From the NCBI GenBank assembly GCA_945878135.1, contig CAMDUL010000001.1, forward strand, positions 62,001-126,000: a DNA stretch of 64,000 nucleotides. The letters run 5' to 3'. Within the stretch, counting starts at the first letter, position 1; each line of letters opens with the position of its first letter. The DNA is from Chthoniobacter flavus. GTDB taxonomy: Bacteria; Verrucomicrobiota; Verrucomicrobiia; Chthoniobacterales; JACTMZ01. The notes below the pieces were generated by a model. It saw nothing but the letters and a program-made list of their open reading frames with translations. It did no database searches and had not been told where the DNA came from. Of this stretch, positions 6,124-30,505 are shown piece by piece. The position numbers were made by a program, and so were the translations under genes.

Positions 6124-6597
6124 TCAGATAACCAGCAGCGACTTGTGGATCTTGGCGATCACCTTGTGCACATAGCGGCTCGACCCATCGGCCACGAGCG
6201 GCTTGTGTCCGTCGGCCGGAAACAGGAACGTGAACAACCCGTCCTGCATATTGAGCAACGCATCGGCTGTCGCCGGAGCATAGAACTGGAAGTCCGTCTT
6301 CTCATCGTACGCGACATCGGCCACCAGCTTGGCCGCCGGCGCCCACTCAATGACCTCGCCGCCGCCCACGATGTATTGCAGGTCGATGTATTCGCGGTGC
6401 GTCTCCCACTTGAAAGCCTCGCGCGAACCCGTGTCCTGACGCATCGTCTTGGCAAACAGCTTCTCCCCGGCAAAGTCGACTTTTTGTCCCGGCGGCACAT
6501 CGCGGCACGTCTTCAACCAATGGAAAAGCGGTTGAGGATCAACACCGCGAAAGATTCCGGCGTAGTTGTGGAGATTGTCGTGGGTGTCGAGGATCAT
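6124..6597 (-). CDS. YhcH/YjgK/YiaL (DUF386) family protein
   Basis: The 157-residue product matches the DUF386/EbgC family, small cupin-fold proteins linked to sugar metabolism in E. coli (YhcH is in the sialic acid operon). Recognisable blocks are WETHREYIDLQYIVGGGE in the middle and the FLFPADGHKP segment, which carries conserved metal-ligand-like His, Glu and Asp residues. It is the last gene of the minus-strand sugar cluster and is followed by a terminator. A role in handling a free sugar or sugar epimer is plausible, but the substrate is unknown. Confidence 0.88.
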   Translation of the reverse strand: MILDTHDNLHNYAGIFRGVDPQPLFHWLKTCRDVPPGQKVDFAGEKLFAKTMRQDTGSREAFKWETHREYIDLQYIVGGGEVIEWAPAAKLVADVAYDEKTDFQFYAPATADALLNMQDGLFTFLFPADGHKPLVADGSSRYVHKVIAKIHKSLLVI

Positions 6598-6603
6598 AGA
6601 GCT

Positions 6604-6630
6604 GTGAAAAGTGACTTGTGACGAGTGGGG
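6604..6630. repeat. GTGAC-type short intergenic repeat
   Basis: The spacer upstream of the YhcH gene contains GTGACTTGTGACGAGTG, a loose tandem of a GTGAC(T/G)(A/T)GT unit. A similar run occurs upstream of rfbB. It is non-coding in appearance. Confidence 0.45.
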
Positions 6631-6666
6631 AATTCCCCGCCTATTCGGACGGCAATCGCTAGCAGA

Positions 6667-7533
6667 CTACTCCGCGATGCGGCGGAGGTATTGACCGTAA
6701 TACGATTTGCCGAGGCTGTTGGCCCGCTCGGTCAGTTGGTCTTTGGTCAGCCAACCTTGATGGAAAGCAATCTCCTCGAGACAGGCGATCATTAGTCCCT
6801 GCCGTGATTGGATAGCGTGGACGAAAGATGCGGCATCGAGCAAAGACTCCGCCGTGCCGGTGTCGAGCCATGCCGTGCCGCGGCCGAACTTCTCCGCCCG
6901 CAACGAGCCCTCGTCGAGGTAGCACCGCGCCAATTCGAGGATCTCCGTCTCGCCGCGCTTGGAGGGCTGCAGTCCTGCCGCAAACTTCGGCGCCCGCTCG
7001 TCGAAGAAATAAATCCCGGGCACCGCGTAACCCGATCGCGGATGCGGGGGCTTCTCCTCGAGCGTGAGAACCCTCCCAGCGTCATCCAGCTCGATGACCC
7101 CGTAAGCCCGCACATCGGACACATGGTAAGCAAATAATGTCCCGCCCGGCGCCATCGCCGCCGACTTGATGCTCTCGCTCAGCCGAGCTCCGTAAAAAAG
7201 ATTGTCACCCAGCACCAAACAGGAAGGCGCGCCGGCCAGAAAATTCTCCGCGATGGTGAAAGCCTGCGGCAAGCCCTCGGGCTTGGCCTGCTCGGCATAG
7301 CTGAACTCCACCCCGAAAGCCGATCCGTCCCCCAGCAACTCCTTGAACCGCGGCAGATCGCGCGGGGTCGAAATAACGAGAATCTCACGCATCCCGCCGA
7401 GCATGAGAACGCTCAGCGGGTAGTAGATCATCGGCTTGTCGAAGACCGGAAGGAGCTGCTTCGAGATCGACGCCGTGCACGGATGCAACCGCGTGCCGCT
7501 GCCGCCGGCGAGAACGATTCCTTTGCGAGTCAT
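6667..7533 (-). CDS. rfbA: glucose-1-phosphate thymidylyltransferase
   Basis: This 288-residue enzyme joins dTTP and glucose-1-phosphate to give dTDP-glucose, the first step of dTDP-deoxysugar synthesis in the cytoplasm. The N-terminal nucleotidyltransferase signature GGSGTRLHPCTASISKQLLP and the following PVFDKPMIYYPLS are textbook RmlA, and the length is standard. It belongs with rfbB at 8824-9888, though a toxin-antitoxin pair and an FmdB-like gene have come between them. No rfbC or rfbD homologue is in the window, so the final dTDP-sugar may not be rhamnose. Confidence 0.97.
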   Translation of the reverse strand: MTRKGIVLAGGSGTRLHPCTASISKQLLPVFDKPMIYYPLSVLMLGGMREILVISTPRDLPRFKELLGDGSAFGVEFSYAEQAKPEGLPQAFTIAENFLAGAPSCLVLGDNLFYGARLSESIKSAAMAPGGTLFAYHVSDVRAYGVIELDDAGRVLTLEEKPPHPRSGYAVPGIYFFDERAPKFAAGLQPSKRGETEILELARCYLDEGSLRAEKFGRGTAWLDTGTAESLLDAASFVHAIQSRQGLMIACLEEIAFHQGWLTKDQLTERANSLGKSYYGQYLRRIAE

Positions 7534-7582
7534 TGATGTGAAAAGTTAGCAGTGTTCAGTTTTCAGCAGCGCAGCCATCCCT

Positions 7583-7984
7583 TCATGCCAGCACATAAGC
7601 CGCCACGGTCAGCCCCGGCACGGCGGCAAAATGGTCGGGATTCCGCGTCAAGACCGGAGAATCCATCGCCACAGCACTCGCCGCAATCCACAAGTCGGGA
7701 TAATCAGGAGCTTTGCCCTTTTTTGCGGTTGCCGCCCAAAGCTCGCAGTAGCAATCCATGGTTTTTTGATTGAAGGGCAGCCGGAGAAAACCACCGTAGA
7801 AAGCTTCGAGCGCGTCCTTGCCCACTCCTTTGTAAAGCGCCCCGCGCGAAAACTCCGCTTCCGTGATCCACGGAACAACCAGCGAAGCGCCTTTGCTTTT
7901 CTTGACCAAATCTGCCAGTCGCGCCGGTGACCGGCGGAACCGCCAGATGTCGATCAACACGGTTGTGTCCGCGATCAGCTCCAT
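7583..7984 (-). CDS. PIN-domain ribonuclease toxin (VapC-like)
   Basis: The 133-residue product is a PIN domain: an N-terminal aspartate in LIADTTVLIDIW, a central glutamate in TEAEFSRGA, and aspartates in YPDLWIAASA and TRNPDHF form the usual acidic metal site. VapC proteins are Mg2+-dependent RNases that cleave specific RNAs when freed from their antitoxin. Its start overlaps the end of the upstream antitoxin gene by 10 bases, the usual order and coupling of such modules. The target RNA is unknown. Confidence 0.9.
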   Translation of the reverse strand: MELIADTTVLIDIWRFRRSPARLADLVKKSKGASLVVPWITEAEFSRGALYKGVGKDALEAFYGGFLRLPFNQKTMDCYCELWAATAKKGKAPDYPDLWIAASAVAMDSPVLTRNPDHFAAVPGLTVAAYVLA

Positions 7985-8823: not shown

Positions 8824-9888
8824 CTACTTCGACAATCCAAGACGTTCGCGGCCATAGCTGCGCTTCTCGACAGCTTCGCACCAAGCGCTGTTGTATAAAT
8901 ACCATTCAACCGTGCGGCGGATGCCGGATTCGAAGGATTCCGAAGGCTTCCACCCCAGTTCGCGGGTCAGCTTGGAGAAATCCATCGCGTAGCGCAAATC
9001 GTGCCCCGGGCGATCCGTGACAAACGTCTTCAGCCGCGCATGTGGTCCCGCCGGATCGGGACGCAACTCATCGAGCAGCGCGCAAATCGTATCAACCACA
9101 TCGATGTTCATTTTCTCCGCTGCGCCGCCGATGTTGTAGGTCTCGCCGAGATGACCGCCTTGCAACACGGTCCAGATAGCGCGGCAGTGATCTTCGACAA
9201 AGAGCCAGTCGCGGATGTTCTCCCCCTTGCCGTAAATGGGCAGCGGCTTGCCCTCGATCGCGTTGCGAATGATCAGCGGGATCAACTTCTCCGGAAACTG
9301 GTAAGGCCCGTAGTTGTTCGAGCAGTTCGTCGTCACCACCGGCATCTTGTGCGTGTGGAACGCGGCCCGGACCAGAAAATCACTCGCCGCTTTGCTCGCC
9401 GCATAAGGGCTATTGGGCGCATAAGGCGTCAGTTCGGTGAAGGCCGCATCCCCCGCTTGCAGGGTGCCGTAAACCTCGTCGGTCGAAACATGGAGAAAGC
9501 GGAACCTCGTCTTCTGCTCCCCTTCCAGCTCTTTCCAGTAACCACGCATTGCATCGAGCAACCGCTGCGTGCCCAGCACATTGGTCGTGATGAAGGGCTC
9601 CGGGGAATCGATCGAACGATCCACGTGCGACTCGGCGGCAAAGTTGAGGACGGCATCAATTTGATGTTCGCGCAATAGCCTGGCCACGAGCGCGGTATCC
9701 CCAATATCCCCTTCGACAAAAACATAACGAGAATCGCCGTCCAGATCCGCGAGGGACCCGCGGTAGCCCGCGTAAGTGAGCAAGTCGAGGTTCACCAGCT
9801 TGCCGACCTTCCAGTCGGGTGATTGCAAGGCAAGGCGGACAAAGTTGCCGCCGATAAATCCGGCGCCGCCGGTGACGAGAAGGTTCAT
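8824..9888 (-). CDS. rfbB: dTDP-glucose 4,6-dehydratase
   Basis: This 354-residue extended SDR enzyme converts dTDP-glucose to dTDP-4-keto-6-deoxyglucose with bound NAD. It has the Rossmann motif GGAGFIGGNFV (7-17), the STDEVYG active-site segment, and the catalytic YAASKAASD motif, with the usual NCSNNYGPYQFPEKLIP segment after it. Length and motifs are standard for RmlB. It uses the product of rfbA, 1.3 kb further along the same strand. Confidence 0.97.
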   Translation of the reverse strand: MNLLVTGGAGFIGGNFVRLALQSPDWKVGKLVNLDLLTYAGYRGSLADLDGDSRYVFVEGDIGDTALVARLLREHQIDAVLNFAAESHVDRSIDSPEPFITTNVLGTQRLLDAMRGYWKELEGEQKTRFRFLHVSTDEVYGTLQAGDAAFTELTPYAPNSPYAASKAASDFLVRAAFHTHKMPVVTTNCSNNYGPYQFPEKLIPLIIRNAIEGKPLPIYGKGENIRDWLFVEDHCRAIWTVLQGGHLGETYNIGGAAEKMNIDVVDTICALLDELRPDPAGPHARLKTFVTDRPGHDLRYAMDFSKLTRELGWKPSESFESGIRRTVEWYLYNSAWCEAVEKRSYGRERLGLSK

Positions 9889-10003: not shown

Positions 10004-13000
10004 TCAGCTGACCGCCGCCAACCGCAGCACGCGCCAAGCGGCTTCGAGTGAGATGGCCGTTGACATCTTCGAGTCGCCCTCGCGGCGTTCGGTGAAGACG
10101 ATGGGAACCTCTCTGATCGTGTACCCCTGCTTCCACGCGGTGTGGTGTAGTTCGATCTGAAAGGCGTAGCCTTCGGCTTGGACTTTGTCCCAATCGAGAT
10201 CGCGGAGGACATCGGCGCGGATGGCTTTGAATCCGCTCGTCGGGTCGCTCATGGGAAGCGCCGTCAGGGTCCGAACGTAGAATCCGCCGAAAGTGCTGAT
10301 GAAGAGCCGGCTCTGCGGCCAATTGAGCACCGAGATGCCGCCAAGATAGCGCGAACCGACAGCGATGTGCGCACCCTGTTCCAGGGCTTCGAGCAGCTTC
10401 GGGATGTCGGCCGGATCGTGCGAGAGATCCGCATCCATCTCGACGGCGGCCTCATAGCCCTTCTGCACCGCCCATTGGAATCCGCGCCGATAGGCCGTGC
10501 CCAGCCCGGCCTTGCCTTTGCCCTCAAGCAGAAAAACACGCTCGTTGAATTCGGGACGCGCGCGCACCACCCCCGCGGTTCCGTCCGGCGATCCGTCGTC
10601 AACGACCAGGACGTCCACCTTGCGCGGAAGCCCGAGAACAAAATCAATCGCCTTGTTGATCGACTCGCGCTCGTTGTAGGTCGGAATGACCACGACCGTT
10701 TTGCTGATCGCCGTTGCCGGAGCCGTGATCACCGGCGACGTTTTGTTCGCCCCGCTCCACCAATCCTTCCACCGCTTGGGAATGAACGGAAGAGGCATGA
10801 CCAGCAACATGCCAAGCACACCGGCCCAAGAGAGGCCCGAGATCCACACGGCGAGGTCATACCAGCGGGGTGGACTGAAAACGAACTCGATCGGGCCGTT
10901 GGTCCTGCCGAGCGGCACCGCCATGAGCCCGCCGAACGCTTTATAGACCGGAATCTGGGAGCCATCCGAGTAAGCGCGCCAATCCGGATGCCAGGCTTCG
11001 GTCACCACGAGCCATCCTTTGCGCTCGCCGAAGGGATCAAACATCATCTTCGAGGGATTCGCCCGCGGTTCGCTGAACGGCACACGCTCAAACGGAGCGC
11101 CTGGACCCTGGGAGTATTTCTGCGCCAGCTGAATACCGCTTGCCGCCGATCCCGTCCCGGCGAGGAACGGGAAGTTGCGTTCGTTCGGCCCGAGCTCCAG
11201 CGGCACCGCGTTGATCTTCCCGGCCACATCGAGAAACGCCGGTGCCAGAGCTTCCGTCCCCGGATCCATCGCGAGGTATTCCCTGGCAATAAAAGCCGGC
11301 GCCAGCGAATCCTTGTTCTCCAGCACCCGGATGTATTCCGAGTCGAATCCTGCCGGATAAGCCTGCGAGAACGCGTTCTGGATCTCCGGCGGCGTGAACG
11401 GATCCTTCTTGTCCAGCAGCACATGCGAAATTCCGGCCACGCGCATGTAGGTCTGCATGGCAGCAGGCGACGAGTTGGCTCCATTGACCAGCGCCCTCAC
11501 CCCGCGCATCTGGAAATGGCTCCATGCCGCCTCGCTGTTGATTCCCCGCCCCGACTGCATGGGCGTGCGTAGGTAGAAATAGCGGCCGGACATCGGATAA
11601 ACCCGCCCCTCGATGAGCGAGGTCTTCAGATAGTCCTGCGAGCGATCGAAATCGGAAAACGTCTGCGCCGGAAGGCCGGGCGCGAAGAACTTCGAGAAGT
11701 AGGCTGACGCATCGAGCAAGAGAATAACCCCAAGCAACCCCGCGACGACCAAGCGATCACGTTTCTCGATCAACGCATCGAAAAGTTGATGCAACGCAAG
11801 AGCGCCTGCAACCGCCCCGGCAAAGAACCCGACCTCCCAGAAACCCCACGGCGCGCGGATGTCGCGATACATGGGAAGCTTCTCCAGCAAGACGAACCCG
11901 GGGACGAAAAGATAGATCAGGATGAGCGCCGTCGCCCAGAGACCGCGCCGCGGCCCCGCAGGCAGAATCGCATAGATAAGGAACGGCGGAATGCAGGTCA
12001 TCAGCCACATGAGCGCCGTAATCCAATCCGGCGCCTTCTGAGAACCCTTGAGAAATTCCTGCAGCCCGGTGAAGACAGAGAAAGGCCCCTGCGAAAGCCA
12101 CAAGGCCAGCAGCGTCATCCCGACGAACAATCGCAAAAGCACGCCACTGCGCGTCGCCAACCACTCCGCATGTTTGCGCGACCACCAAAAGACCGCCGCC
12201 ACAGCGAACAGCGTGACGAGCCCAAGATAAAACTGCCCGCGGTCCGCCACAAAATCCGGACGCATCTGCGCCAGCAACCCATTCGCCCGGTCGAGCACCG
12301 AGATGAAATTCTTCATCGAAAATGCCTGCTGCCACCCGGCGAAGTTGTCGAACGTGAAAGCGGCCACCCACTGGTATTCGCGGGTCAGCGGCAGAAGCAG
12401 CACCACCGCCATCAAGCAGACCAGCGCCAAGGCCACCAACGTGCCCCGCACCAGCGCGACCCGTCGTTCCGGTCGATCAAGCAGCAACCAGACAAAGAAA
12501 ATGGCCGCCATCGGCGCGAACATGAAAGTCAGCTTGGCGTAGGACAGCATCATGGCGGACCAACCCAGTGCCAGCCAAGCCGATGCCCGCCACGAACCTT
12601 CATCGGCAATTTTGAGGAACGCCCAGAGGATGAGCGGCGGGAAAATATACGAGTAGCTCCCCATCCAGTGCTCGAAATTCGCAATGCGCAGGAGGATCTG
12701 CGCACTGAGCACGTAGAGAACGGCCGCCACGACCGCGGTCCAGTCGTGGCCGGTCAGACGCCGGACAAAAACGAACATCGCCGCGGCGGCCGCGGGAATG
12801 ACCGCCAAGGCCGCGATTTTGATCCCCGCCGGATCACCGAAGAGATGGAAGAAGAGAGTGCCGAAGAACAACGGGAAAGCGCTGAGAAAGTAAGGTGTGT
12901 TGCTCTGTCCCTGCAGGAAGTCGGGTCCCCACCATGAGATGCCTCCGTGGCTGAACATGCGACCGAACTCCGCAATGAACCGGCCGACATCGCCGTAAAG

Positions 13001-13156
13001 TTCCTCCTGTGATGGCGTCTGACGCAGCCAGCCGAAGCCCAACGCAAAAGTGTAGACCGCGACGAAAGCGGCCAAAGCTAAAACCGGTGTGTTCGAGGGG
13101 CCCGGTTTCCCGGGTTTCGGCTGGTCAGCGGCTTGCATGGAGGTCGGCGAAGTCAT
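10004..13156 (-). CDS. large polytopic membrane protein (YfhO/GT-C-like) fused to polyprenol-phosphate mannose synthase
   Basis: The product is about 1050 residues. Residues 1-790 are a polytopic membrane protein with about a dozen hydrophobic segments and a soluble part near 480-740, resembling the YfhO/GT-C group of lipid-linked-sugar transferases. The last 242 residues are a complete GT2 domain of the dolichol/polyprenol-phosphate mannose synthase (DPM1) type, with VVIPTYNERESI, VDDGSPDGT, the DxD motif VEMDADLSHDP, and TERREGDSKMS. The fusion suggests that one chain makes a polyprenyl-phospho-sugar and transfers it across the membrane. The ATG at 13156 overlaps the upstream stop by one base; a GTG at 13159 is an alternative start. 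The first domain's assignment is the weaker one. Confidence 0.85.
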   Translation of the reverse strand: MTSPTSMQAADQPKPGKPGPSNTPVLALAAFVAVYTFALGFGWLRQTPSQEELYGDVGRFIAEFGRMFSHGGISWWGPDFLQGQSNTPYFLSAFPLFFGTLFFHLFGDPAGIKIAALAVIPAAAAAMFVFVRRLTGHDWTAVVAAVLYVLSAQILLRIANFEHWMGSYSYIFPPLILWAFLKIADEGSWRASAWLALGWSAMMLSYAKLTFMFAPMAAIFFVWLLLDRPERRVALVRGTLVALALVCLMAVVLLLPLTREYQWVAAFTFDNFAGWQQAFSMKNFISVLDRANGLLAQMRPDFVADRGQFYLGLVTLFAVAAVFWWSRKHAEWLATRSGVLLRLFVGMTLLALWLSQGPFSVFTGLQEFLKGSQKAPDWITALMWLMTCIPPFLIYAILPAGPRRGLWATALILIYLFVPGFVLLEKLPMYRDIRAPWGFWEVGFFAGAVAGALALHQLFDALIEKRDRLVVAGLLGVILLLDASAYFSKFFAPGLPAQTFSDFDRSQDYLKTSLIEGRVYPMSGRYFYLRTPMQSGRGINSEAAWSHFQMRGVRALVNGANSSPAAMQTYMRVAGISHVLLDKKDPFTPPEIQNAFSQAYPAGFDSEYIRVLENKDSLAPAFIAREYLAMDPGTEALAPAFLDVAGKINAVPLELGPNERNFPFLAGTGSAASGIQLAQKYSQGPGAPFERVPFSEPRANPSKMMFDPFGERKGWLVVTEAWHPDWRAYSDGSQIPVYKAFGGLMAVPLGRTNGPIEFVFSPPRWYDLAVWISGLSWAGVLGMLLVMPLPFIPKRWKDWWSGANKTSPVITAPATAISKTVVVIPTYNERESINKAIDFVLGLPRKVDVLVVDDGSPDGTAGVVRARPEFNERVFLLEGKGKAGLGTAYRRGFQWAVQKGYEAAVEMDADLSHDPADIPKLLEALEQGAHIAVGSRYLGGISVLNWPQSRLFISTFGGFYVRTLTALPMSDPTSGFKAIRADVLRDLDWDKVQAEGYAFQIELHHTAWKQGYTIREVPIVFTERREGDSKMSTAISLEAAWRVLRLAAVS

Positions 13157-19783: not shown

Positions 19784-20040
19784 ACGGACTCCTCCGTCTG
19801 CATATCATTCCGTCGCTCATCGATGAGTTCCTGGACGGCGCTCTGGCCCGGCTTGAGCAGTGCCTTCCCCCTGCCCCTCATCAGGGCGACAACTTTGTTT
19901 AACGGAGGCAACGGCCTCACCCGAATTTCCTCCGGTGACACGTAGGTCCATTCCAGACGTGCCCCAGGCTCAAGCTCTGCTTGCCCCACCAAAGCTGCAG
20001 GCAAGGTGGTTTGGTTTTTCCTTGTAAGAGTCGTGATCAT
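19780..20040 (-). CDS. AbrB/MazE-type antitoxin
   Basis: From the ATG at 20040 the product is 86 residues beginning MITTLTRKNQTTLPAALV, the swapped-hairpin AbrB DNA-binding motif. The tail (RGKALLKPGQSAVQELIDER) resembles the toxin-wrapping end of PIN-partner antitoxins. It should neutralise the adjoining PIN RNase and repress its own promoter, expected in the 170-base gap before the alcohol dehydrogenase. Confidence 0.85.
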   Translation of the reverse strand: MITTLTRKNQTTLPAALVGQAELEPGARLEWTYVSPEEIRVRPLPPLNKVVALMRGRGKALLKPGQSAVQELIDERRNDMQTEESV

Positions 20041-20172
20041 TGTTCTTAAAAATGAGCAAGGATACTGAACAAGGCAAGGAGTTTTCGTGGACGCTGTTGT
20101 TCGAGGAATCGGTTCATCTTGCCCAAGCACGGGCCGTGGCGAAGGCGCAGCCGATCAGAATTCCTACCCGTA

Positions 20173-21256: not shown

Positions 21257-21281
21257 AGTCTCAAGCCTCTCGATCCGTTTT

Positions 21282-21309
21282 CTCTCACGGAGACACGGAG
21301 GCACCAAGG
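21282..21309. repeat. CTCACGGAGACACGGAGGCAC repeat, copy 2
   Basis: The block CTCTCACGGAGACACGGAGG followed by CACCAAGG lies immediately upstream of the alcohol dehydrogenase start. It is the inverse orientation of copies 1, 3 and 5. Confidence 0.75.
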
Positions 21310-22554: not shown

Positions 22555-23478
22555 TTACTGGCTGAGCGCGAAAATACGCTCGGCAACTTTTTCGGCAGTG
22601 AGACCCGCCCACTCACGAGCAGAGGGCTGGTGGGTGGTGGCGTGAAGGAACTCATCGGGCGTTCCGAAAGTGACGAGCTTGGCCTTGGCAGAAGCCGGGT
22701 TGACGGCAACCCACTCGGAGACCGCGGTGCCGAGACCGCCGAGCACGGAGTGCTCTTCGAAGGTGACTACGACTTTGGCCGACGCGAAAACATCCGCCAG
22801 CAGCTTCGTATCCAGAGGCTTGAGCGATCCCATGCTGGCAACGCCGCAACTGACACCCCGGCTGCCCAGTTGCTTTGCTGCCTCCATTGCCATTGGTAAC
22901 ATATTGCCCAGCGCGAGAATCCAAGCATCCTTGCCTTCGCGAAGGCGCAAGGCTTTGCCAATTTCAAACTTTGGCTCCGCCTCGTGGACAACCGGCTCGC
23001 CCTTCTTGCCGATGCGGATGTAGACGGGGCCGGGATACTTCAGGGCTGCATTCAGCGCCGGGCGCAGCTCTTTCTCGTCCCCTGGCGCGAGGACAGCCAG
23101 ACCCGGGATCAAGCGCAGCATGCCCATGTCTTCGACCGAGTGATGCGTGGATCCGAGCGAGGCGTAGGAAAGTCCGGAACCGGTGCCGACAAGAATAACA
23201 CCTTGATGATGGTAGCCGAGATCGAGGCGGATCTGCTCGATGACGCGATACGTGAGGAACGAGGCGATCGTGTAACAAACTGGACGCAATCCGCACGCCG
23301 CCATGCCGGCGGCAACGCCCACCATGTTGGCTTCGGCCACGCCGCAATTGAAGAAGCGGCCCGGTGCGACCTCTTTGAATTTGTCGAACAAGCGGTTCCC
23401 GATGTCGCCCGAAAGCAAAACGATGTCCTCGCGCTGCTGCGCAATCTTGGTGATTTCGTCCGCAAAGGCGTTACGCAT
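22555..23478 (-). CDS. transketolase, C-terminal subunit
   Basis: This 307-residue subunit carries the pyrimidine-binding and C-terminal transketolase domains. The activating glutamate lies in FFNCGVAEANMVGVAAGMA, followed by the conserved TIASFLTYRVIEQIRLDL and SLGSTHHSVEDMGMLR. With the N-terminal subunit at 23894-24718 it forms a ThDP-dependent enzyme that moves two-carbon ketol units between sugars. Split transketolases are frequent in specialised sugar clusters. Here the two halves are parted by a broken gene. Confidence 0.92.
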   Translation of the reverse strand: MRNAFADEITKIAQQREDIVLLSGDIGNRLFDKFKEVAPGRFFNCGVAEANMVGVAAGMAACGLRPVCYTIASFLTYRVIEQIRLDLGYHHQGVILVGTGSGLSYASLGSTHHSVEDMGMLRLIPGLAVLAPGDEKELRPALNAALKYPGPVYIRIGKKGEPVVHEAEPKFEIGKALRLREGKDAWILALGNMLPMAMEAAKQLGSRGVSCGVASMGSLKPLDTKLLADVFASAKVVVTFEEHSVLGGLGTAVSEWVAVNPASAKAKLVTFGTPDEFLHATTHQPSAREWAGLTAEKVAERIFALSQ

Positions 23479-23489
23479 GGGAAAAGTTA

Positions 23490-23519
23490 GAATTCAAAAT
23501 GCAGAATGATGAATGCACA
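23490..23519. repeat. TGCATTTTG/CAAAATGCAGAATGATGAATG repeat
   Basis: The block AATTCAAAATGCAGAATGAT followed by GAATGCACA sits between the transketolase C-terminal subunit and the broken four-helix-bundle gene, and encodes that gene's last residues. A matching inverse copy (TGCACTTTTCCTTCTGCATT, 23871-23890) lies at its 5' end. Further copies occur at 24736-24832 and 27427-27506. Confidence 0.65.
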
Positions 23520-23897
23520 GTAAGCTTCTTCGAGCGGTTCTGATGCTCGTGACAAATATCGCGATCAACTCGCGGGGCTCTTCGAGTAGGGGCGCAAGCT
23601 TGGCGGGCGGGACGACATTTTCTTGGGAAAGTAGATCCAGCCAGTATTCGGATTCGCCGAGTTCCTTCAGGCAACGCCCATTTTGGCGATAAACTCAGCT
23701 TTGCTTCGAGCCCTGGATGCTTCCCGGTAGTTTGCTCCTACCGACGTTCCACTGCGAAGGACCTGTTTGCCCAAGACTTGCGCGACAACCGATTTTGGCA
23801 GGCAAGGAACAAGCCGGATGATGCGTCGGGCATAGAGCTTTGTTCTATCGGCAGGATCTGCTTTTCCATTATGCACTTTTCCTTCTGCATTCATCAT
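23494..23897 (-). pseudogene. frameshifted four-helix-bundle protein (23S rRNA intervening-sequence type)
   Basis: Residues such as LYARRIIRLVPCLPKSVVAQ, then VLGKQVLRSGTSVGANYREA, then SRARSKAEFIAKMGVA are diagnostic of the four-helix-bundle/IVS protein family. The frame stops right after GVA at about 23667, but shifting by one base restores the expected continuation LKELGESEYWLDLL and runs to a stop at 23494. One G appears lost around 23670-23671. The intact gene would encode about 134 residues, a normal length. Its function in non-rRNA settings is unknown. It sits between the two transketolase halves. Confidence 0.82.
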
Positions 23898-24718
23898 TCC
23901 AGCGCAAGCTCCTTGCGCGCCGCGGCCAACTCTTCCGCGTTGGGAATCCGATAATGCCAGTTGTTGTCGTCTTCCATGAACGACACGCCGCGTCCCTTGA
24001 TTGTGTGGGCGACGATAGCCAAAGGCTTGGTGCGGTCGGGAAGTTCGGCACAGGCCAAGGCGGCGCGGACTTCGGCGAAGTCGTGTCCGTCGACTTCGTA
24101 ACTCTCCCAACCGAAGGCCTCCCACTTGTCGCGCAGCGGCGCGAGCGCCATGACTTCCTCGCTGCGCCCGGTGGCCTGCCATTTGTTGTAATCGACAAGC
24201 ACGGTGAGCGAACCGAGCTTTTGGGCCGCGGCAAACATGGCGGCTTCCCACACACTGCCCTCGTTGCACTCGCCGTCGCTGAGCAGGGCTACCGTGCGAT
24301 AGTCACGCTTTTGGATCCTTTCCGCCAAGGCCATGCCGACTCCCACGGACAAACCGTGGCCGAGAGAACCGGTGGCCCATTCAACTCCCGGTGCACAGTC
24401 CGGAGCTGGTTGCTCGGCGAGAGCAGCGCCGTCTTTGGCGTAATCCGCCAAAAGTTGCGGCGAGAAGAAGCCGCGGCGGCACAGGGTGACATAAAGCGCC
24501 GGGGCGGCGTGACCTTTGCTCAAGATAAAGCGGTCGCGACCGGGGGAAGCAGGCCTTCTGGGGTCGATGCGCAGGAATTCCCAATAAAGGACGGCCAGCA
24601 GATCCAAGCAGGAAAGCGAAGAACCCAGGTGCGGGGTCTTGGCGCGGTGGGACAGACCGATGACTTCGGCACGGAGCTCCGCCGCGATACGCTCGAGATG
24701 TTCGCTGGAGTGGATCAC
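23894..24718 (-). CDS. transketolase, N-terminal subunit
   Basis: The 274-residue product starts at a GTG (24718) and contains the ThDP diphosphate-binding motif LLSDGECNEGSVWEAAMF, ending in VDYNKWQ. It also has LSKGHAAPALYVTLCRRGFF and GSLGHGLSVGVGMAL, all standard for the transketolase N-terminal half. It partners the C-terminal subunit at 22555-23478. Both probably act on a sugar phosphate that feeds the kinase-nucleotidyltransferase encoded next to them. Confidence 0.92.
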   Translation of the reverse strand: MIHSSEHLERIAAELRAEVIGLSHRAKTPHLGSSLSCLDLLAVLYWEFLRIDPRRPASPGRDRFILSKGHAAPALYVTLCRRGFFSPQLLADYAKDGAALAEQPAPDCAPGVEWATGSLGHGLSVGVGMALAERIQKRDYRTVALLSDGECNEGSVWEAAMFAAAQKLGSLTVLVDYNKWQATGRSEEVMALAPLRDKWEAFGWESYEVDGHDFAEVRAALACAELPDRTKPLAIVAHTIKGRGVSFMEDDNNWHYRIPNAEELAAARKELALE

Positions 24719-24735: not shown

Positions 24736-24832
24736 GAAGAATGCAGAATGCAAAATGATGAATGAGATCTGCGGAAAACGCAGCAGTTCACAGCCTGTAT
24801 TCTGCACTCTGCATTTTGCGTTTTGCACTTCT
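24736..24832. repeat. inverted pair of GCAGAATGCAAAATG repeats
   Basis: The 113-base spacer begins with AAGAATGCAGAATGCAAAAT and ends with TTCTGCACTCTGCATTTTGC. The two arms are inverted copies of one AT-rich unit and could fold into a hairpin. The same unit appears at 23490-23519 and 27427-27506. No gene is seen in the spacer. Confidence 0.65.
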
Positions 24833-26382
24833 CAAACCGCGGGATCGCGGTTGAGGAGCGCCATACCGCTCTTGAGGAGGACAGGTTTCGAGATCGGCTC
24901 GCGGTTACCGACGATTTTCACGGCCTGCGCGCCGGCGAGTTGTCCGAGGAAAGTCGTGAGATCGACCGGCAGGCCATTCCTTGCGGCCAAGGCCATGACC
25001 GAGAAGAACGCGTCCCCTGCCCCGATCGTATCGGTGATGTCGTCGCCCAGCGGCGGACAGGCGGCTTTGCTGCCGCCGGCATCGATGCCGATCGTTTTCA
25101 CGGCGCCGCGGGTGAGCCATCCGGCGCGGGCGTTGAGGTGTCCGCGGAGTTTGTCCAACTCGGCGCCGAAATCGACGTGGCGGTGACCGCAGGAAAGCAG
25201 GATTTCCTGTTCATCCAACGAGAAGACGTCCGCGCGGCGGTATTGACGCGAGATGATGTTGAACCCGTGGTTGTTGGAATTGGTCTGGCAGTTGAGCGCG
25301 AGGAAAACCCCGCTGTCTTGCAGGAAGTCGCGGACGGCCTGCTGCATAAGGCCGTGGCCAAAGTCGGCCAGCACGACGAGATCGGCATTCTTGATCTCTG
25401 CTTCGAGTTTACCCAACACGCGATCGATCACCGCCTGCTTCGGCGCATCGGCATTGATGAAATTCACGCTGAAAAGCTTGCTCAGGTCCTTGCCCTCACT
25501 GACCGGTTCGACATAGCGCTGCTTGATAATGGAGACGAAGTCCGGATCGCGGACCGCTGCGTCGTCCTCTGTCGGCATGAACATGCGCAGAGTCGGCTCG
25601 AGCCAACCTTCCGTCCCAAGTAGCGAGACCAAACGGACATTCGGCGTGAACTGCTTGATGTGACGGTAGACAGCGAGCGCGCCGCCGGCTTGGGCTTCCT
25701 CCTCGAGATAGCGACCGGAAATGATGCGATTCTTCGAGGTGAGACCCTGAACTTTGACGAAAGAGTATTTGTCGAAAATGGTGTCGCCGACAACGAGCAC
25801 GCGAAGGCCGGCAAATCCGGCCACCGCGTCGGCAAGATCCTGTGGGGAGATGCGTGAAGCCAGTTGTCCACAGAACTCGGCGACCTCATGGTTGGCCGTC
25901 TCAAAGTGACGGTTCAGTAGCCGCGTGGAGCTGAAGACCACGTCGCCGAGATAGCGGACTTCGCCGCCATACTTTTGAACCGTGGCGACGTCATCGTGGA
26001 TGTTGCCGGTAACGTCATTGGCCGCATCGGCGTATTCGGTGCCCTTGCAATAGATGCTCGGCTTGACCGTTTCGATCGCCTCGACGGCGGCGGTATGCGG
26101 AACAAGCACCACATAGTCGACGCAGGAGAGCGCGGCCAGTGTGCGGCCGCGGAGCGCGTCGTTGAAATATGGCCGTCCCGGGCCTTTGTTGACGTGTTTC
26201 TCGTCGGTGACGGTGACAACAAGGACATCGCCGAGCTTCTTGGCCTCTTCGAGGTGAACGATATGGCCGGGATGGACGAGATCAAAGGTGCCGTGGCACT
26301 GCACCAGGCGCTTGCCTTCGCCGCGCAGTTTGTCGAAGAGCGCAGGCGCTTCGGCGAAGGGGATGATTTTCTCGGAAGCCAT
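24832..26382 (-). CDS. nucleotidyltransferase-PfkB sugar kinase fusion (HldE domains in reverse order)
   Basis: Residues 1-150 form a cytidylyltransferase-like domain (CHGTFDLVHPGHIVHLEEAK with the HxGH motif). Residues 190-510 form a PfkB carbohydrate kinase (LVVGDTIFDKY and the anion hole DTIGAGDAFFSV). HldE, which makes ADP-heptose, has the same two domains with the kinase first; here the transferase comes first. It likely phosphorylates a sugar phosphate and activates it as a nucleotide sugar. Together with a transketolase, which can form seven-carbon or longer ketoses, a heptose-like product is plausible. It overlaps the upstream SDR gene by one base. Confidence 0.87.
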   Translation of the reverse strand: MASEKIIPFAEAPALFDKLRGEGKRLVQCHGTFDLVHPGHIVHLEEAKKLGDVLVVTVTDEKHVNKGPGRPYFNDALRGRTLAALSCVDYVVLVPHTAAVEAIETVKPSIYCKGTEYADAANDVTGNIHDDVATVQKYGGEVRYLGDVVFSSTRLLNRHFETANHEVAEFCGQLASRISPQDLADAVAGFAGLRVLVVGDTIFDKYSFVKVQGLTSKNRIISGRYLEEEAQAGGALAVYRHIKQFTPNVRLVSLLGTEGWLEPTLRMFMPTEDDAAVRDPDFVSIIKQRYVEPVSEGKDLSKLFSVNFINADAPKQAVIDRVLGKLEAEIKNADLVVLADFGHGLMQQAVRDFLQDSGVFLALNCQTNSNNHGFNIISRQYRRADVFSLDEQEILLSCGHRHVDFGAELDKLRGHLNARAGWLTRGAVKTIGIDAGGSKAACPPLGDDITDTIGAGDAFFSVMALAARNGLPVDLTTFLGQLAGAQAVKIVGNREPISKPVLLKSGMALLNRDPAV

Positions 26383-27416
26383 CAGCGGGCGAGATAATCG
26401 AGGCAGCCGGCGTCGCGGCCGACTTGCATGAACTTCATGTTGTAGTGCTCGGCGGCGTCGATGTCGGAGAACTGACCGGACTCAAGCACGCTGCGGAGAT
26501 GAGCCACCTCCTGCTTGATGCTGCTGACCGGTTTGTAGCCGAGATCGCGCAGAATGCGGTCCGATGAAATGTGGTAGTCGCGGTGGTCGGTGGTATCGGA
26601 CACTTCTATCTTGACGTTAAGATCGGACAACTCGGACTGGATGATTTTGGCGATGTCGATGACCTTGTGGTTTTCGAAACCGAAGTTGAAAGTGCGCCCG
26701 TTGATCTTTTCGGCCGGAGCTTCAACCAGCAGCCCGTAGAGATTGATCATGTCGGTCATACCGACGTTCGGGCGGCGTTGCTGCCCGCCGTGCACCGTGA
26801 TCACTTTTTTGCGCAGCGCATCGGCTGTGAGCTTGTTGACCGTCAGGTCAAAACGCTGGCGCGGCGAATAGCCGCAGATGGTGGCGGGACGAACATTGAC
26901 CGCACAAAAGTCGGGACCCGCCGCGGAGAGGACAAGCCACTCGGACAGGGCCTTGTATTTCGAGTAATAAGTAAGCGGTTCGGGCTCGAGGCGCTCGTTG
27001 ATTTCGGATTCCGTGCGTGCCCCAAACACACTGGAGGACGACGCATTGATGAAACGCTTCACGCCGGCCTCTTTGGCCAGCGCGAGGAGCATGCCGACCG
27101 CATCGAAGTTCACTTGGCGGGTGAGGACTTCGTCGATATCGCCGGTCGGATCATTGGAGATAGCGGCGAGGTGGATGACGGTATCGCGTCCGGCGAGGGC
27201 TTCGCGCACTTTGGCCGCATCGCGAAGATCACCGCGGACCAGACTGAAGCGTTTTTCCCATTCCGGCCATTTCGGGTCGGCCTTGAGGGCGTCGAGGCCT
27301 GCTTCGGTATAAAGCATGAGATCAAGGACACGAACATCATGTCCGAGGGACAAAAGATGCGGAACGAGTCGGCTGCCGACGTAGCCGAAGCCACCTGTTA
27401 CTAATATTTTTGCCAT
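26382..27416 (-). CDS. NAD-dependent epimerase/dehydratase (extended SDR)
   Basis: This 344-residue enzyme has the Rossmann motif ILVTGGFGYVGSRLV, INASSSSVFG, and the catalytic TYYSKYKAL (YxxxK). Its sequence resembles the nucleotide-sugar SDRs that accompany HldE-type enzymes and transketolases in glycan loci. It probably epimerises or dehydrates the nucleotide sugar made by the fused kinase-nucleotidyltransferase, which starts at its stop codon. Exact chemistry is unknown. Confidence 0.9.
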   Translation of the reverse strand: MAKILVTGGFGYVGSRLVPHLLSLGHDVRVLDLMLYTEAGLDALKADPKWPEWEKRFSLVRGDLRDAAKVREALAGRDTVIHLAAISNDPTGDIDEVLTRQVNFDAVGMLLALAKEAGVKRFINASSSSVFGARTESEINERLEPEPLTYYSKYKALSEWLVLSAAGPDFCAVNVRPATICGYSPRQRFDLTVNKLTADALRKKVITVHGGQQRRPNVGMTDMINLYGLLVEAPAEKINGRTFNFGFENHKVIDIAKIIQSELSDLNVKIEVSDTTDHRDYHISSDRILRDLGYKPVSSIKQEVAHLRSVLESGQFSDIDAAEHYNMKFMQVGRDAGCLDYLAR

Positions 27417-27509: not shown

Positions 27510-28517
27510 TCACGCCTTGTGGATGTAGTTCTTTGGTTGTTCGCGGAGGGTGTCCAGGTTGGCGTCGATCCAACGCTTGGTGTCGGCGATCCCCTCCTCC
27601 AGCGAGACGCGATCCTGCCATCCGAGCTTGGTGCGGGCGAGACTGGCGTCTAGGAGGTAGGCGGAGTCCTTGCCGGGGCGGTCGGCCACGATTTCGGCGA
27701 AGTCTTCGAACTTCACGCCGGCTTGGTCGCACATCAGGGCAACGAGGTCACGGATGGAAATGGTGCGCTTGGTCGACAAATGAAAAACATCCCCCGGATC
27801 CCCGCTCAGCGCGGCGCGGAGGGTGCCGTCCGAGACATCGTCGATATGGATGAATGAACGCAGCGAGTGTCCGCCGCCGTGGAGTTGGAGCTTTTGACCG
27901 AGCGCCAGGAAAAGAAGTGTGCGCGGAACAATGCGGTAGAGTTGCTGTCCGGGACCAAAGACATTGGCAGCGCGGGTGAAGACGGCGGGGAAGTTGTATT
28001 GGCGGATGAAGGTTTGCAGGTGAAGGTCGCACGCGGCGCGGGACGCGGCGTAGGGCGTGCTCGGATTGAAGGGCGCGTCTTCCCGCACGTCGCCGGAGCA
28101 GCTGCCGTAGACTTCGGGCGTCGAAACGTGGACGTATTTCTTTAGCCCGGACATTTTGCGCAGCCCGTCGTGGAGACGCACATTGGCGACGACATTGGTC
28201 TGATACCAGTGGTCCGGATTCTCCCAACTTTCGGCCACCATGCTCTGCGCGGCGAAGTTGACCACATAGGGCGCGTGGAAATCCGCTGTCGCGTCGAGGA
28301 TCTCTTTCGTATGGTGGTTGAGATCGAACTGAGAGAAGCGGAAGCGGGACAATTCCTCCGGCGTGCGCTGCCAGCGATACGGGAGAAAAACCGGGTGCGC
28401 CTCGACCGAACGGCTGGTCCCGAGAACTTCCCACCCCTCGCGCAGGCAGTGCGAAACGAAGCTCGCCCCGGAAAACGAGTTGCTGCCGATGACAACAATG
28501 CGCTTCGGATCACTCAT
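27510..28517 (-). CDS. extended SDR, nucleotide-sugar 4,6-dehydratase-like
   Basis: The 335-residue protein resembles dTDP-glucose and GDP-mannose 4,6-dehydratases: VNFAAQSMVAESWENP, HVSTPEVYGSC (Thr-Pro-Glu of the dehydratase site), and the late FIHIDDVSDG. Two motifs are unusual. The glycine-rich loop reads IGSNSFSGASFV, and the catalytic YxxxK is YAASR, with Arg for Lys (codon CGC). The dehydratase TxE triad remains. It may be a variant subfamily or have altered activity. Its start overlaps the upstream hypothetical gene by 8 bases. Confidence 0.86.
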   Translation of the reverse strand: MSDPKRIVVIGSNSFSGASFVSHCLREGWEVLGTSRSVEAHPVFLPYRWQRTPEELSRFRFSQFDLNHHTKEILDATADFHAPYVVNFAAQSMVAESWENPDHWYQTNVVANVRLHDGLRKMSGLKKYVHVSTPEVYGSCSGDVREDAPFNPSTPYAASRAACDLHLQTFIRQYNFPAVFTRAANVFGPGQQLYRIVPRTLLFLALGQKLQLHGGGHSLRSFIHIDDVSDGTLRAALSGDPGDVFHLSTKRTISIRDLVALMCDQAGVKFEDFAEIVADRPGKDSAYLLDASLARTKLGWQDRVSLEEGIADTKRWIDANLDTLREQPKNYIHKA

Positions 28518-29292
28518 TGGGTGCGGTCGAGGCCGGAAGTTCGGGCATCATGGATGCCGGGGCGGAACCCTGGCGGAACCGGCCTTGCTCGAGGCGCAAA
28601 AGCCGATACCACAGCTCCTCCACACGATTGCGGTAGTTGCCGGAGTTGCGTTGCCAGCTGATGCCGATGGCCGCCTCGAAGTGCCGGCGTTCGTTTTCGG
28701 ACAAATCTTTCCCGGCTTGGGGATCGGGTGACACCCCTTGCACCGGAGAGCCCAATTTGACGAGCCTCTCCATGTGCCGGTCGCGGTCTTCGAGCGCCTC
28801 CTGCAAAATCTGCGCGATGGTCGCCGCGGTCGCGTAGATCTCCTCGTCGTCGAGATTGACCTTCTCGCGCTCGGTGCGGAAGGCGGCCTGCAACCCGGCG
28901 AGGCTTTCCGGACTGTATCCGGCAGCGCCTGTCTCCAGCGGGGCGAGGATCGGGTCGATGAAAGGCAGCAAGCGCCCGCTGGGTGCCCCGCCGGCAAGTT
29001 GGTAGGGACTGCTGCGCTCCTGCTGGAGAAACCAGGCAAAGCCGAGGACCGCCAGGACCAGCAGTGCGAGAACCCATAGCCACGCGGCCGTGTTGCGGTC
29101 GGAGGGCGCAGCCCGGACTGCCGCGGGAAAACGGATATCTCCTCCGGGCCCGGTCCGGTTGCCGCCGCGATGCTGACGGCGGGGACTTTCCTCCTCTTCG
29201 GGCAAGGAGGAACGGCGGCGGCGACGACGGCGGCGGGGCGTTTCCGGAGGGAACGGCTCACGCGAGGGTTGGTCGATATCGTCGAAGATCAT
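28510..29292 (-). CDS. hypothetical single-pass membrane protein, first gene after the ops-like element
   Basis: I do not recognise the family. The 260-residue protein has a very basic N-terminus (an eight-arginine run near 20-27), one transmembrane helix at about 70-89 (WLWVLALLVLAVLGFAWFL), then an extracytoplasmic or periplasmic, mostly helical region with acidic stretches. It lacks enzyme motifs. Its place between the NusG-type regulator and the first sugar enzyme suggests an accessory role in the envelope glycan pathway, but this is a guess from position. Confidence 0.75.
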   Translation of the reverse strand: MIFDDIDQPSREPFPPETPRRRRRRRRSSLPEEEESPRRQHRGGNRTGPGGDIRFPAAVRAAPSDRNTAAWLWVLALLVLAVLGFAWFLQQERSSPYQLAGGAPSGRLLPFIDPILAPLETGAAGYSPESLAGLQAAFRTEREKVNLDDEEIYATAATIAQILQEALEDRDRHMERLVKLGSPVQGVSPDPQAGKDLSENERRHFEAAIGISWQRNSGNYRNRVEELWYRLLRLEQGRFRQGSAPASMMPELPASTAPNE

Positions 29293-29305: not shown

Positions 29306-29318
29306 GCAAGCTGCCGCC
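29306..29318 (-). promoter_or_regulatory. ops-like element
   Basis: On the minus strand the sequence is GGCGGCAGCTTGC, 13 bases before the next start codon and 65 bases after the NusG-type gene. The E. coli ops element bound by RfaH is GGCGGTAGCGTG; this matches 10 of 12 bases. It also contains a small stem (GGCA-GCT-TGCC), and ops forms a hairpin too. In GC-rich DNA chance is a fair rival explanation. Confidence 0.4.
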
Positions 29319-29383
29319 CTTGGTCGCGGAGAGAACTCCCCGACCCTGCGGCCACACGTTGGGATAACGGCGCGATAAGTTTT

Positions 29384-29953
29384 TCAATCGGTGCGGGCCA
29401 CCGAGCGGCCCGCGAGCGGATGCACTTTGCCCGGGACAACACGGTCGAGCATGACCTCGACCTCCCGCTGGGTGCCGAGCAGATCGAGCAGGACGGCCAC
29501 ACGCTCCTTGGCCGGCATGACCCGCGTGACCACCGCCCGAAGGCCTTTGAACGGTCCGTCCAGGACAGTGACCTCGTCTCCCGGCACGACATCGGGGACG
29601 ATCTCGATGACTTCGTTGTCGCGGACAAAATGACGCAACTCGCCGATGACCTCTTCGGCCACGACCGAGGGTTGTCCGCCAAAACCGATGATCCTCGACA
29701 CGCCCATGGACGAGGCCACCAAGCGGTAATGGGTGCGGTAGGGAAACCGTCCGAAGATGTAACCCGGAAAGAGCGCTTCCTCGAACCACTTCTTGCCGGT
29801 AGCCGTGACGCGCTGGAAACGCAGCACCGGGCTGAACACCTCGAGACCGGCTTGGGAGCGGAGGAATTGGGCGGCCAGTTTCTCGTGCTTGGGCTGGGTC
29901 TGAAGACAGAACCAAAGCGGATCGGTCGACTCCATGAGCGGGTGGTTTTCCAT
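29384..29953 (-). CDS. specialised NusG paralogue (RfaH/UpxY/LoaP-like transcription antiterminator)
   Basis: The 189-residue product has the NusG N-terminal domain (WFCLQTQPKHEKLAAQFL and LFPGYIFGRF) and a KOW motif (GDEVTVLDGPFKGLRAVV). General nusG genes sit beside secE/rplK; this one heads a surface-sugar cluster, as specialised NusG paralogues do. These bind RNA polymerase and stop it ending transcription early in long operons. It follows a GbsR/MarR-type gene and precedes about 23 kb of co-directional sugar genes, its likely target. A second ATG at 29935 is a possible start. Confidence 0.88.
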   Translation of the reverse strand: MENHPLMESTDPLWFCLQTQPKHEKLAAQFLRSQAGLEVFSPVLRFQRVTATGKKWFEEALFPGYIFGRFPYRTHYRLVASSMGVSRIIGFGGQPSVVAEEVIGELRHFVRDNEVIEIVPDVVPGDEVTVLDGPFKGLRAVVTRVMPAKERVAVLLDLLGTQREVEVMLDRVVPGKVHPLAGRSVARTD

Positions 29954-29958
29954 GGCGT

Positions 29959-30465
29959 CTATATTTTGAGAAAAGTGGACACGAGAGGCACGAGGCGACG
30001 GGCTTTGTTATGCCACGCTTGCAGCCGCTCGACACGCCCGGAGAGACCCTCGGGCGCCCCGTTGCAGGGATCATCCACCGCCGCACGCAGGCGGTCGAGC
30101 CGCTCGTCGGCCCGCTCCATCTTGGCCGACAATTGGTCGCGCAGAAAACCCCGGACCAAAGCCGGCAATTCCGCCTCGGCCTCGAAATAGTCTTTGCGGT
30201 CCCCGGGAAGATGGCTGACCCGCACCGCCCCCACCCCGCGCAGAAGACGCAGCCCCTGGCTCGCCGACCCCTTGCTGATCCCGAGTGTGGCCACCAAGTC
30301 ATCGAGCGTCATGAGCTCCCCTCGGGCGAAGAGCAGGCCGTAGATCTCCCCGACCGAGCGGGGTAGCGAGAGGTATTTGCCGAGGTGCACGAAAAACTCC
30401 AACAACTCCCTCTCGGCCGGACCCAAACGGGACGGAGAGACTTGGGGTATTGTCGCGGCCGGCAT
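29959..30465 (-). CDS. GbsR/MarR-type transcriptional regulator
   Basis: This 168-residue protein has a winged helix-turn-helix (LDDLVATLGISKGSASQGLR and a wing VRVSHLPGDRKDYFEAE) and a long helical C-terminus, the GbsR layout. I use the ATG at 30465 because a sigma70-like promoter lies at 30478-30505; a GTG at 30486 would fall inside it. The gene lies 5 bases before the NusG paralogue, and the pair probably governs the sugar cluster. The ligand is unknown. Confidence 0.85.
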   Translation of the reverse strand: MPAATIPQVSPSRLGPAERELLEFFVHLGKYLSLPRSVGEIYGLLFARGELMTLDDLVATLGISKGSASQGLRLLRGVGAVRVSHLPGDRKDYFEAEAELPALVRGFLRDQLSAKMERADERLDRLRAAVDDPCNGAPEGLSGRVERLQAWHNKARRLVPLVSTFLKI

Positions 30466-30477
30466 GGAATAGGACCA

Positions 30478-30505
30478 ATTATGCACTGAAAAGCGCAGGA
30501 TTCAA
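30478..30505 (-). promoter_or_regulatory. candidate sigma70-type promoter of the sugar cluster
   Basis: On the minus strand TTGAAT (30500-30505) and CATAAT (30478-30483) are separated by 16 bases. Transcription would begin only about 5-8 bases before the ATG at 30465, so the message would be nearly leaderless. Confidence 0.4.

Follow-up and report, generated by a model that had tools for sequence, protein, structure and literature searches.

We analyzed a 64,000-nucleotide stretch of the Chthoniobacter flavus assembly GCA_945878135.1 (contig CAMDUL010000001.1, positions 62,001 to 126,000 of the forward strand), which we will call the window. The host draft genome is 2.64 Mb and 90.7% complete. 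A run of minus-strand genes in the window, from 30486 to 6124, includes a split transketolase and a nucleotidyltransferase fused to a kinase. We estimate a probability of about one half that the core of this run directs the synthesis of a branched nucleotide sugar destined for a surface glycan, by C-branching of a nucleotide-bound keto-heptose. Judging from sequence comparisons and gene neighborhoods, the split transketolase is the likely branching enzyme, and we favor this role over the building of a ketose chain. More tentatively, we propose that nucleoside diphosphate (NDP)-(deoxy)-keto-heptoses are a widespread and undescribed class of surface sugars, that they are branched by split transketolases (to at least nine carbons), and that transketolase and E1-type enzymes are exchanged in one operon slot.

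The core genes are all on the minus strand. sdr1 (27510..28517) encodes an extended short-chain dehydrogenase/reductase (SDR) that resembles 4,6-dehydratases (TIGR01181, 183 bits, below the cut-off), and sdr2 (26382..27416) encodes an extended SDR of the epimerase or reductase type, which is present in most of the loci described below. In ntk (24832..26382), a nucleotidyltransferase domain (HPGH motif) lies ahead of a fused PfkB-type kinase (GAGD motif), which is HldE-like in reverse. TktN (23894..24718) is the thiamine-diphosphate-binding half of the split transketolase, and TktC (22555..23478) is the pyrimidine-binding and C-terminal half. The core also includes mt1 (21849..22517), an S-adenosylmethionine (SAM) methyltransferase whose start we inferred from L002:13295-13960, and adh (20210..21307), a zinc-dependent dehydrogenase.

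In the pathway that we favor, a GmhA-type isomerase, for which this genome has two candidates on other contigs, would convert sedoheptulose 7-phosphate to an aldoheptose phosphate. The kinase domain of ntk would phosphorylate C1; once a phosphatase had stripped the other phosphate, the nucleotidyltransferase domain would form the NDP-heptose. The products of sdr1 and sdr2 would oxidize, dehydrate, or epimerize this to a keto-heptose. The split transketolase would then transfer a two-carbon acyl group onto the ketone, from either pyruvate (acetyl) or a ketol (hydroxyacetyl), which would create a tertiary alcohol and bring the sugar to at least nine carbons. The zinc dehydrogenase would reduce the new branch ketone, methyltransferases would decorate the sugar, and GT2 enzymes would hand it on.

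The core genes and the transketolase slot

Genome contigs were scanned for ntk, which gave 38 loci. Thirty-three of these are titled Verrucomicrobiota, and L005 and L007 come from the same isolate. When the window's proteins were mapped onto these loci, the same neighbors recurred around ntk, often in identical order. The conservation of this neighborhood is more than chance. For instance, L006 is collinear with the window from the GbsR gene to the membrane-GT2 gene, and only the methyltransferase at 14684-15856 had no score there. There is also a second architecture (L008-L012, L028, L030, and others), in which an epimerase-type SDR follows ntk instead. An earlier sequence-only reading of this stretch, which proposed an unusual activated sugar, would have been undermined if these genes did not co-occur across Verrucomicrobiota. 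This was not borne out, as the core recurs in the 38 loci.

The slot near ntk holds the split transketolase in 28 loci, E1 alpha in six, and neither in four. E1 beta follows E1 alpha in five of the six E1 loci, and the contig of L022 stops inside E1 alpha. In a separately sampled genome (L067), the gene order is SIS-sdr1-ntk-sdr2-E1alpha-E1beta, where SIS is a putative isomerase gene. On a plasmid of Azospirillum oryzae, ntk and SIS are likewise paired with E1 subunits. According to sections of a 2025 review (PMC12247030), the use of ketone acceptors is known from only three superfamilies of thiamine-diphosphate enzymes, namely the decarboxylases (YerE-like), the transketolases, and the alphaKADH2 (E1-type) enzymes. 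The same sections describe the ketone role of transketolases as a proposal that awaits demonstration in vitro. Two of these three superfamilies (transketolase and E1-type) swap in the same slot here.

In a sample of the phylum (115 genomes), we found ntk (E up to 1e-60) in five genomes and TktN (same limit) in 19. Four of the five genomes with ntk hold both; in the fifth (G112), the enzyme is of the E1 type. Neither type was seen at the ntk loci of G125 and G091.

The split transketolase

The two halves in the window match PF00456 and PF02779 plus PF02780, respectively, with their best scores to transketolase models, so they are not members of the E1-type alphaKADH2 superfamily. Nor does this two-gene transketolase belong to the YerE-like single-chain decarboxylase superfamily. 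A separate full-length transketolase with the standard motifs is also encoded in the genome, so the split transketolase is additional.

We built a tree from 39 concatenated sequences with both halves (none of E1 type). TktN and TktC hits were admitted at 120 bits or above; the tree and the active-site comparison omit the TktC of L008, L034, and L007 and the 4178 hit of L012, which were weak, partial, or broken. A clade of 30 sequences (support 100/99) comprises the window, all 25 of the placed locus sequences, and four others: Solidesulfovibrio copy 2, Azospirillum argentinense, Paenibacillus cellulosilyticus, and Methylovirgula. Because of long branches, the exact placements of L027, A. argentinense, Paenibacillus, and Methylovirgula are unsure. 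The Methylovirgula enzyme is encoded in the cluster rfbF-rfbG-SDR-rfbH-tktN-tktC, and the Paenibacillus enzyme in the cluster rfbF-rfbG-MT-SDR::TktN-TktC. In both, the split transketolase adjoins genes for CDP-glucose cytidylyltransferase and CDP-glucose 4,6-dehydratase. By gene content, these are CDP-4-keto-sugar clusters, which is the (yersiniose-like) kind of setting in which YerE works. Members of this clade thus lie near NDP-keto-sugar enzymes: sdr1, sdr2, and ntk in the window, and rfbF-rfbG in two other members. On the P. cellulosilyticus plasmid, the SDR of the CDP-glucose cluster is fused to the TktN half (L055:4097-6004).

We compared active-site residues using E. coli numbering, mapped via the genome's own transketolase (and via human transketolase for H100). 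The equivalents of H26, H66, D155, H261, D381, and E411, which are involved in binding thiamine diphosphate and in catalysis, are kept in all 30 TktN and 27 TktC sequences from the window and the loci. Other positions have changed. In the window, H100 is replaced by Q in TktN, while TktC has H461->G, D469->L, S385->R, and R520->K. The changes at H461, D469, and R520 are found in 27/27 TktC sequences, S385->R in 25/27, and H100->Q in 26/30 TktN sequences.

Excerpts of two papers (PMC7696235, PMC7661550) describe the engineering of H461S (in EcTK) and D470L (in TKgst) to widen the range of acceptors, and of H100/H102 to alter the use of donors. They also describe DXS as having F at the position of H100, and engineered H100F or H100L as raising the use of pyruvate. 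We considered whether H100->Q alone identifies pyruvate as the donor and set this aside, because Q, too, is a polar residue and H is kept in 4 of the 30 N-terminal halves.

Outside the loci, H461 and D469 vary. Both are kept in Enterococcus, in Solidesulfovibrio copy 1, and in the housekeeping enzyme. The pair is H/Y in Paraburkholderia and in two Streptomyces enzymes from nonribosomal peptide synthetase (NRPS) clusters. (The Streptomyces enzymes, L057 and L062, are on plasmids and form a separate group of split transketolases, in NRPS-type clusters with LysW genes; H461 is kept and D469 is Y.) The four other members of the clade have G/S (A. argentinense), G/Q (Paenibacillus), G/A (Methylovirgula), or G/L (Solidesulfovibrio copy 2).

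The pair is S/L in split transketolases from Agrobacterium, Listeria, and Croceibacterium. This rules out the loss of H461 and D469 as a mark that is special to sugar-nucleotide clusters. The S/L enzymes are encoded near an FGGY-family or glycerol kinase, a sugar isomerase, and pectin genes. From these neighbors, we take them to be involved in apiose/apulose catabolism, as apulose-4-phosphate transketolases, whose reaction takes place at a tertiary carbon. Such a reaction would fit with a ketone acceptor.

Alternatively, the split transketolase could build an unusual ketose phosphate (heptulose or octulose), which would then be activated by the SIS isomerase, the ntk kinase, a phosphatase of the HAD family, and the nucleotidyltransferase. 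The product would be a linear higher-carbon sugar, as in the lincosamide octose route. The enzyme set does map onto this route step by step, the HAD phosphatase accompanies the transketolase type of locus, and R358, R385, and K520, being basic, could hold a phosphate. Nevertheless, we consider this route unlikely. This is not a task that one would expect of the E1-type subunits that fill the slot in 6/38 loci; L028, L068, L070, and phage P-SSM2 have SIS and ntk-type genes but no transketolase match; the split enzyme no longer has the acceptor residues H461 and D469; and it groups with those from CDP-4-keto-hexose clusters, where a ketose phosphate is not needed.

The sequence-only reading had the transketolase building or swapping ketose chains, for a sugar of seven or more carbons that might be branched. 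Because of the E1-type swap, the tree, and the active-site columns, we moved this enzyme from chain-building to branching, and the same evidence gives inferential support to a branched or longer sugar. Chain-building appears less likely, given that a standard full-length transketolase is present and that the split enzyme lacks the usual acceptor residues.

The predicted heptose start and the rest of the run

The closest named matches of ntk, at 95%, are from metagenome-assembled genomes labelled Verrucomicrobia and Chthoniobacter flavus. ntk matches the models for HldE, rfaE_dom_I (75.3 bits, cut-off 345), and rfaE_dom_II (98.4 bits, cut-off 181.5), all below the cut-offs, and so it falls outside these families as curated. 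The HPGH and GAGD motifs are intact in all 32 of the ntk sequences that were long enough to align. The top matches of the nucleotidyltransferase half in the PDB are cytidylyltransferases.

Within 4 kb upstream of ntk, 18 of the 38 loci encode a SIS protein of a single family. Four members of this family were scanned, and all four contain PF13580 (one is exactly at the cut-off). The copy in L020 scores 121 bits with the model for GmhA (sedoheptulose 7-phosphate isomerase), which is below the cut-off. Because a GmhA-type SIS gene lies so close upstream of ntk in 18/38 loci, a predicted start from a nucleotide-heptose is well supported. This agrees with the seven-carbon sugar that had been suggested from the sequence alone, by inference, though the isomerase is not in the window. 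The genome has two SIS_2 genes elsewhere, at C15 (GmhA-like) and C16 (more distant). The better-scoring GmhA relative, at C15, is still below the cut-off. The isomerase at C16 shares 44% identity with that of the A. oryzae ntk cluster.

Two side observations concern SIS genes. The C16 gene, itself GmhA-like, adjoins a NodU-like gene (L064 6968-9461); this neighborhood may be a second sugar locus, and the isomerase could come from there. And in the Prochlorococcus phage P-SSM2 (L050, 236397-239655), genes for a carbamoyltransferase, a nucleotidyltransferase, a kinase, and a phosphoheptose isomerase are adjacent. We did not find a transketolase match in this cyanophage region, which was the only one examined.

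In sdr1, the TDE of dehydratases is replaced by TPE in all 25 of the full-length sequences that we chose (we excluded the weaker hit from L035 and the fragment from L007). The window has TPEVYG, so the Glu is kept and the Asp is replaced by Pro. YxxxR replaces YxxxK in 24 of the 25 (L069 has K). A dehydratase-like role for sdr1 is plausible.

Further downstream are had (16908..17489, minus strand), which encodes a HAD phosphatase with intact motifs (PF00702, 22.1 bits, below the cut-off), and aph (15949..16917, minus strand, start inferred), which encodes a small-molecule kinase with a choline-kinase/APH fold. Using a threshold of 60 bits, both are present in 19 of the 28 transketolase loci and in none of the six E1 loci. 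When only loci with 5 kb or more of downstream sequence are considered, the counts are 18/23 and 0/5 (Fisher p = 0.0026, for loci that are not independent). Both proteins retain their catalytic motifs. (The APH sequence from L017 contained X and was omitted from one of the analyses.) The predicted structures (mean pLDDT 95.8 for HAD and 89.3 for APH) had generic fold matches only: deoxyribonucleotidase-like proteins, CbbY, and others for HAD, and LicA, choline kinase, and APH enzymes for APH. Searches of the PDB with the two sequences returned nothing useful. HAD and APH may serve to prepare the ketol donor, or they may modify the extra hydroxyl that it brings. In five loci, HAD and APH are in one reading frame (L015:8104-9732, L021:9966-11627, L023:15355-17004, L026:6989-8599, and L033:4939-6594), which suggests that their substrates are linked.

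These genes raise another possibility, namely that the locus has two products: an NDP-heptose (from ntk and the SDRs) and an unrelated compound from a TktN-TktC-HAD-APH-mt1 block. A HAD-APH-TktN-TktC-mt1 block recurs in Solidesulfovibrio, on a plasmid where it lies on the opposite strand from ntk-SIS and about 13 kb away. The fusion of HAD to APH in five loci would also fit. However, the Verrucomicrobiota loci mostly interleave the two blocks in the same direction, and mt1 and adh are retained in three of the six E1 loci (L016, L031, and L037). We consider two products to be quite unlikely.

Several observations weigh against the branching of an NDP-keto-heptose. Neither enzyme type is near ntk in 4/38 loci (three of these contigs end within 2.1 kb downstream), and L068 and L070 show neither type within 20 kb. 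In the phylum sample, TktN adjoins ntk in only two of the five ntk genomes (the window and G082). The isomerase gene is not in the window's cluster. HAD and APH follow the transketolase type, yet no proposed step needs both, and L069 is a transketolase-type locus that has neither. H100 is kept in four of the TktN sequences and in L069, so both pyruvate and a ketol are plausible donors. D469 is replaced by S, Q, or A, instead of L, in three other members of the clade, and this variation slightly lowers our confidence in branching. Finally, the three S/L split transketolases from sugar catabolism share the loss of H461 and D469, and a literature search found nothing to back their role at a tertiary carbon.

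At the low end of the run, RfbB (8824..9888; TIGR01181, 479 bits) and RfbA (6667..7533; TIGR01207, 427 bits), both on the minus strand, score above the cut-offs. RmlC (at C6, 187 bits) and RmlD (at C3, 272 bits) are also above the cut-offs, so the genome has the full set for dTDP-rhamnose. Because RfbA and RfbB are ordinary by score and RmlC and RmlD are elsewhere in the genome, these two probably belong to the ordinary supply of dTDP-rhamnose. They had been placed in the unusual-sugar cluster, and they are indeed present and co-directional, but probably with this ordinary role. One could go further and argue that only standard ADP-heptose and dTDP-rhamnose are made, with the remaining genes as bystanders. 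The scores of RfbA and RfbB and the presence of RmlC and RmlD fit with this. But an rfaE2-type adenylyltransferase (at C8, 178.6 bits, just below the cut-off) and the GmhA relative at C15 (also below the cut-off) are encoded elsewhere, so the standard ADP-heptose route seems not to need ntk. Also, ntk, the split thiamine-diphosphate enzyme, mt1, and adh are found together across many loci. It is very unlikely that only the standard sugars are made.

A NusG paralog with a KOW domain (29384..29953, minus strand) is near the start of the run. It is RfaH/UpxY-like, with scores of 91.5 bits for RfaH (cut-off 144.5), 77.3 for UpxY (cut-off 100), and 64.6 for LoaP (cut-off 125), all below the curated cut-offs. 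In all ten of the other genomes from the genus, a NusG of 85-88 bits is accompanied by one or two weaker copies. Only the weaker kind was seen in the window's assembly, so the housekeeping NusG is probably missing from the draft. The paralog heads the cluster in five of the six loci in the window's group (L002-L007), and L003 ends before that point. The suggestion of a specialized NusG was thus right in kind: an RfaH/UpxY-like protein with KOW is beside the core in 5/6 of these loci. At the threshold used, no NusG match was found in L008-L039, and many of these contigs end early. The paralog probably aids transcription through the long run.

All of the genes that had been named from the sequence alone were found on the minus strand and are co-directional. 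The HAD phosphatase, the APH-type kinase, and a GbsR/MarR-like gene are additional. The last of these (29959..30486; PF12802, 20.2 bits; CudC model, 45 bits; both below the cut-off) is at the high end of the run. Between the NusG paralog and sdr1 is a protein (28510..29292) that has no family match and one membrane segment, judged by eye; it has homologs in L002 and L004-L007 (60-72% identity). Downstream of adh are two membrane-type open reading frames (18814-19329 and 18275-18817) with no family match, both with homologs in L006 and L020, and a GT2 glycosyltransferase (17496..18278). Beyond aph are cmt (14684..15856), which has a Methyltransf_23 core and is presumably C-methyltransferase-like; mt3 (13971..14690), a SAM methyltransferase; sdr3 (13156..14127), an RmlD-like SDR whose true start is probably downstream of the reading frame's start; and a membrane protein fused to a GT2 glycosyltransferase (10004..13159). 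A YhcH/YjgK/YiaL protein (6124-6597) ends the run. All of these genes are also on the minus strand.

Small open reading frames and probable inserts are scattered through the run, which is not one intact operon. A four-helix-bundle element of the 23S rRNA IVP type, about 415 bases with an interrupted frame (23479..23893; minus strand; PF05635, 33.6 bits, cut-off 33.8), separates the two halves of the transketolase in the window and in L004, L005, and L007. The copies (L004:6863-7279, L005:11047-11461, and L007:13156-13570) are 87-90% identical to the window's. The element is missing between the halves in L002, L003, and L006, where the gap between the aligned halves is 3 bases (L002 and L003) or 7 bases (L006). 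A relative (71%) is upstream of sdr2 in L003 (L003:159-476). By eye, the element has imperfect inverted repeats at its ends, as if it were mobile between intergenic sites. A GxxExxY/PDDEXK_3 gene between mt1 and adh (21341..21817; PF13366, 134 bits; present in L002 and absent in L006) and a MazE-type antitoxin (19780..20130; PF04014, 27.4 bits), both on the minus strand, are probable further inserts.

Comparison with known systems

Our literature searches, with most subscription journals outside their coverage, found no prior description of this gene set. If C-branching of a nucleotide-bound keto-heptose is correct, then a transketolase that accepts ketones would for the first time have a role at the cell surface, and a kind of higher-carbon sugar would be added to those of bacterial surfaces. 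The transketolase and E1 types would be a natural pair for learning how the donor and the ketone acceptor are chosen. The clade gives many testable enzymes, some of them on plasmids of cultured strains, and there is also a demand for enzymes that can catalyze the formation of chiral tertiary alcohols.

The sugar-branching split transketolases in the same sections of the 2025 review (PMC12247030) are 13 predicted enzymes, all from Streptomycetes. These sections describe a proposed role for a split transketolase in the biosynthesis of miharamycin and amipurimycin, namely the transfer of a C2 ketol onto a keto-sugar, which is similar to the role proposed here. By the review's description, those are Streptomyces antibiotics, whereas the clusters described here are of a surface-glycan type and include NDP-heptose genes. 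The alphaKADH2 enzymes of the AviB1/AviB2 and KbDH types are also two-subunit thiamine-diphosphate enzymes that form a C2 branch, according to parts of two sources (PMC12247030, PMC4753412). E1-type subunits fill the same slot in 6/38 of the relatives, while the window's enzyme is of the transketolase type. Parts of the same sources describe the C2 branching of an NDP-keto-sugar by YerE, to form yersiniose for lipopolysaccharide. YerE is a single flavoprotein from the decarboxylase superfamily that acts on CDP-3,6-dideoxy-4-keto-glucose; in contrast, we find a split transketolase and a putative heptose start.

The RfaH, UpxY, and LoaP systems likewise place a NusG paralog ahead of a surface-sugar operon, though the window's copy is below every curated cut-off. 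The HldE/GmhA/GmhB pathway shares the logic of an isomerase, a kinase, and a nucleotidyltransferase. ntk differs in that its domain order is reversed, its scores are below the curated cut-offs, the closest solved matches of its nucleotidyltransferase half are cytidylyltransferases, and the isomerase is outside the window's cluster. Finally, the split transketolase from Carboxydothermus (6yak/6yaj) is the best solved sequence match for both of the window's halves. In contrast to the window's enzyme, it keeps His at position 100 (where the window has Q) and is the sole transketolase of its genome, according to portions of its description (PMC7661550).

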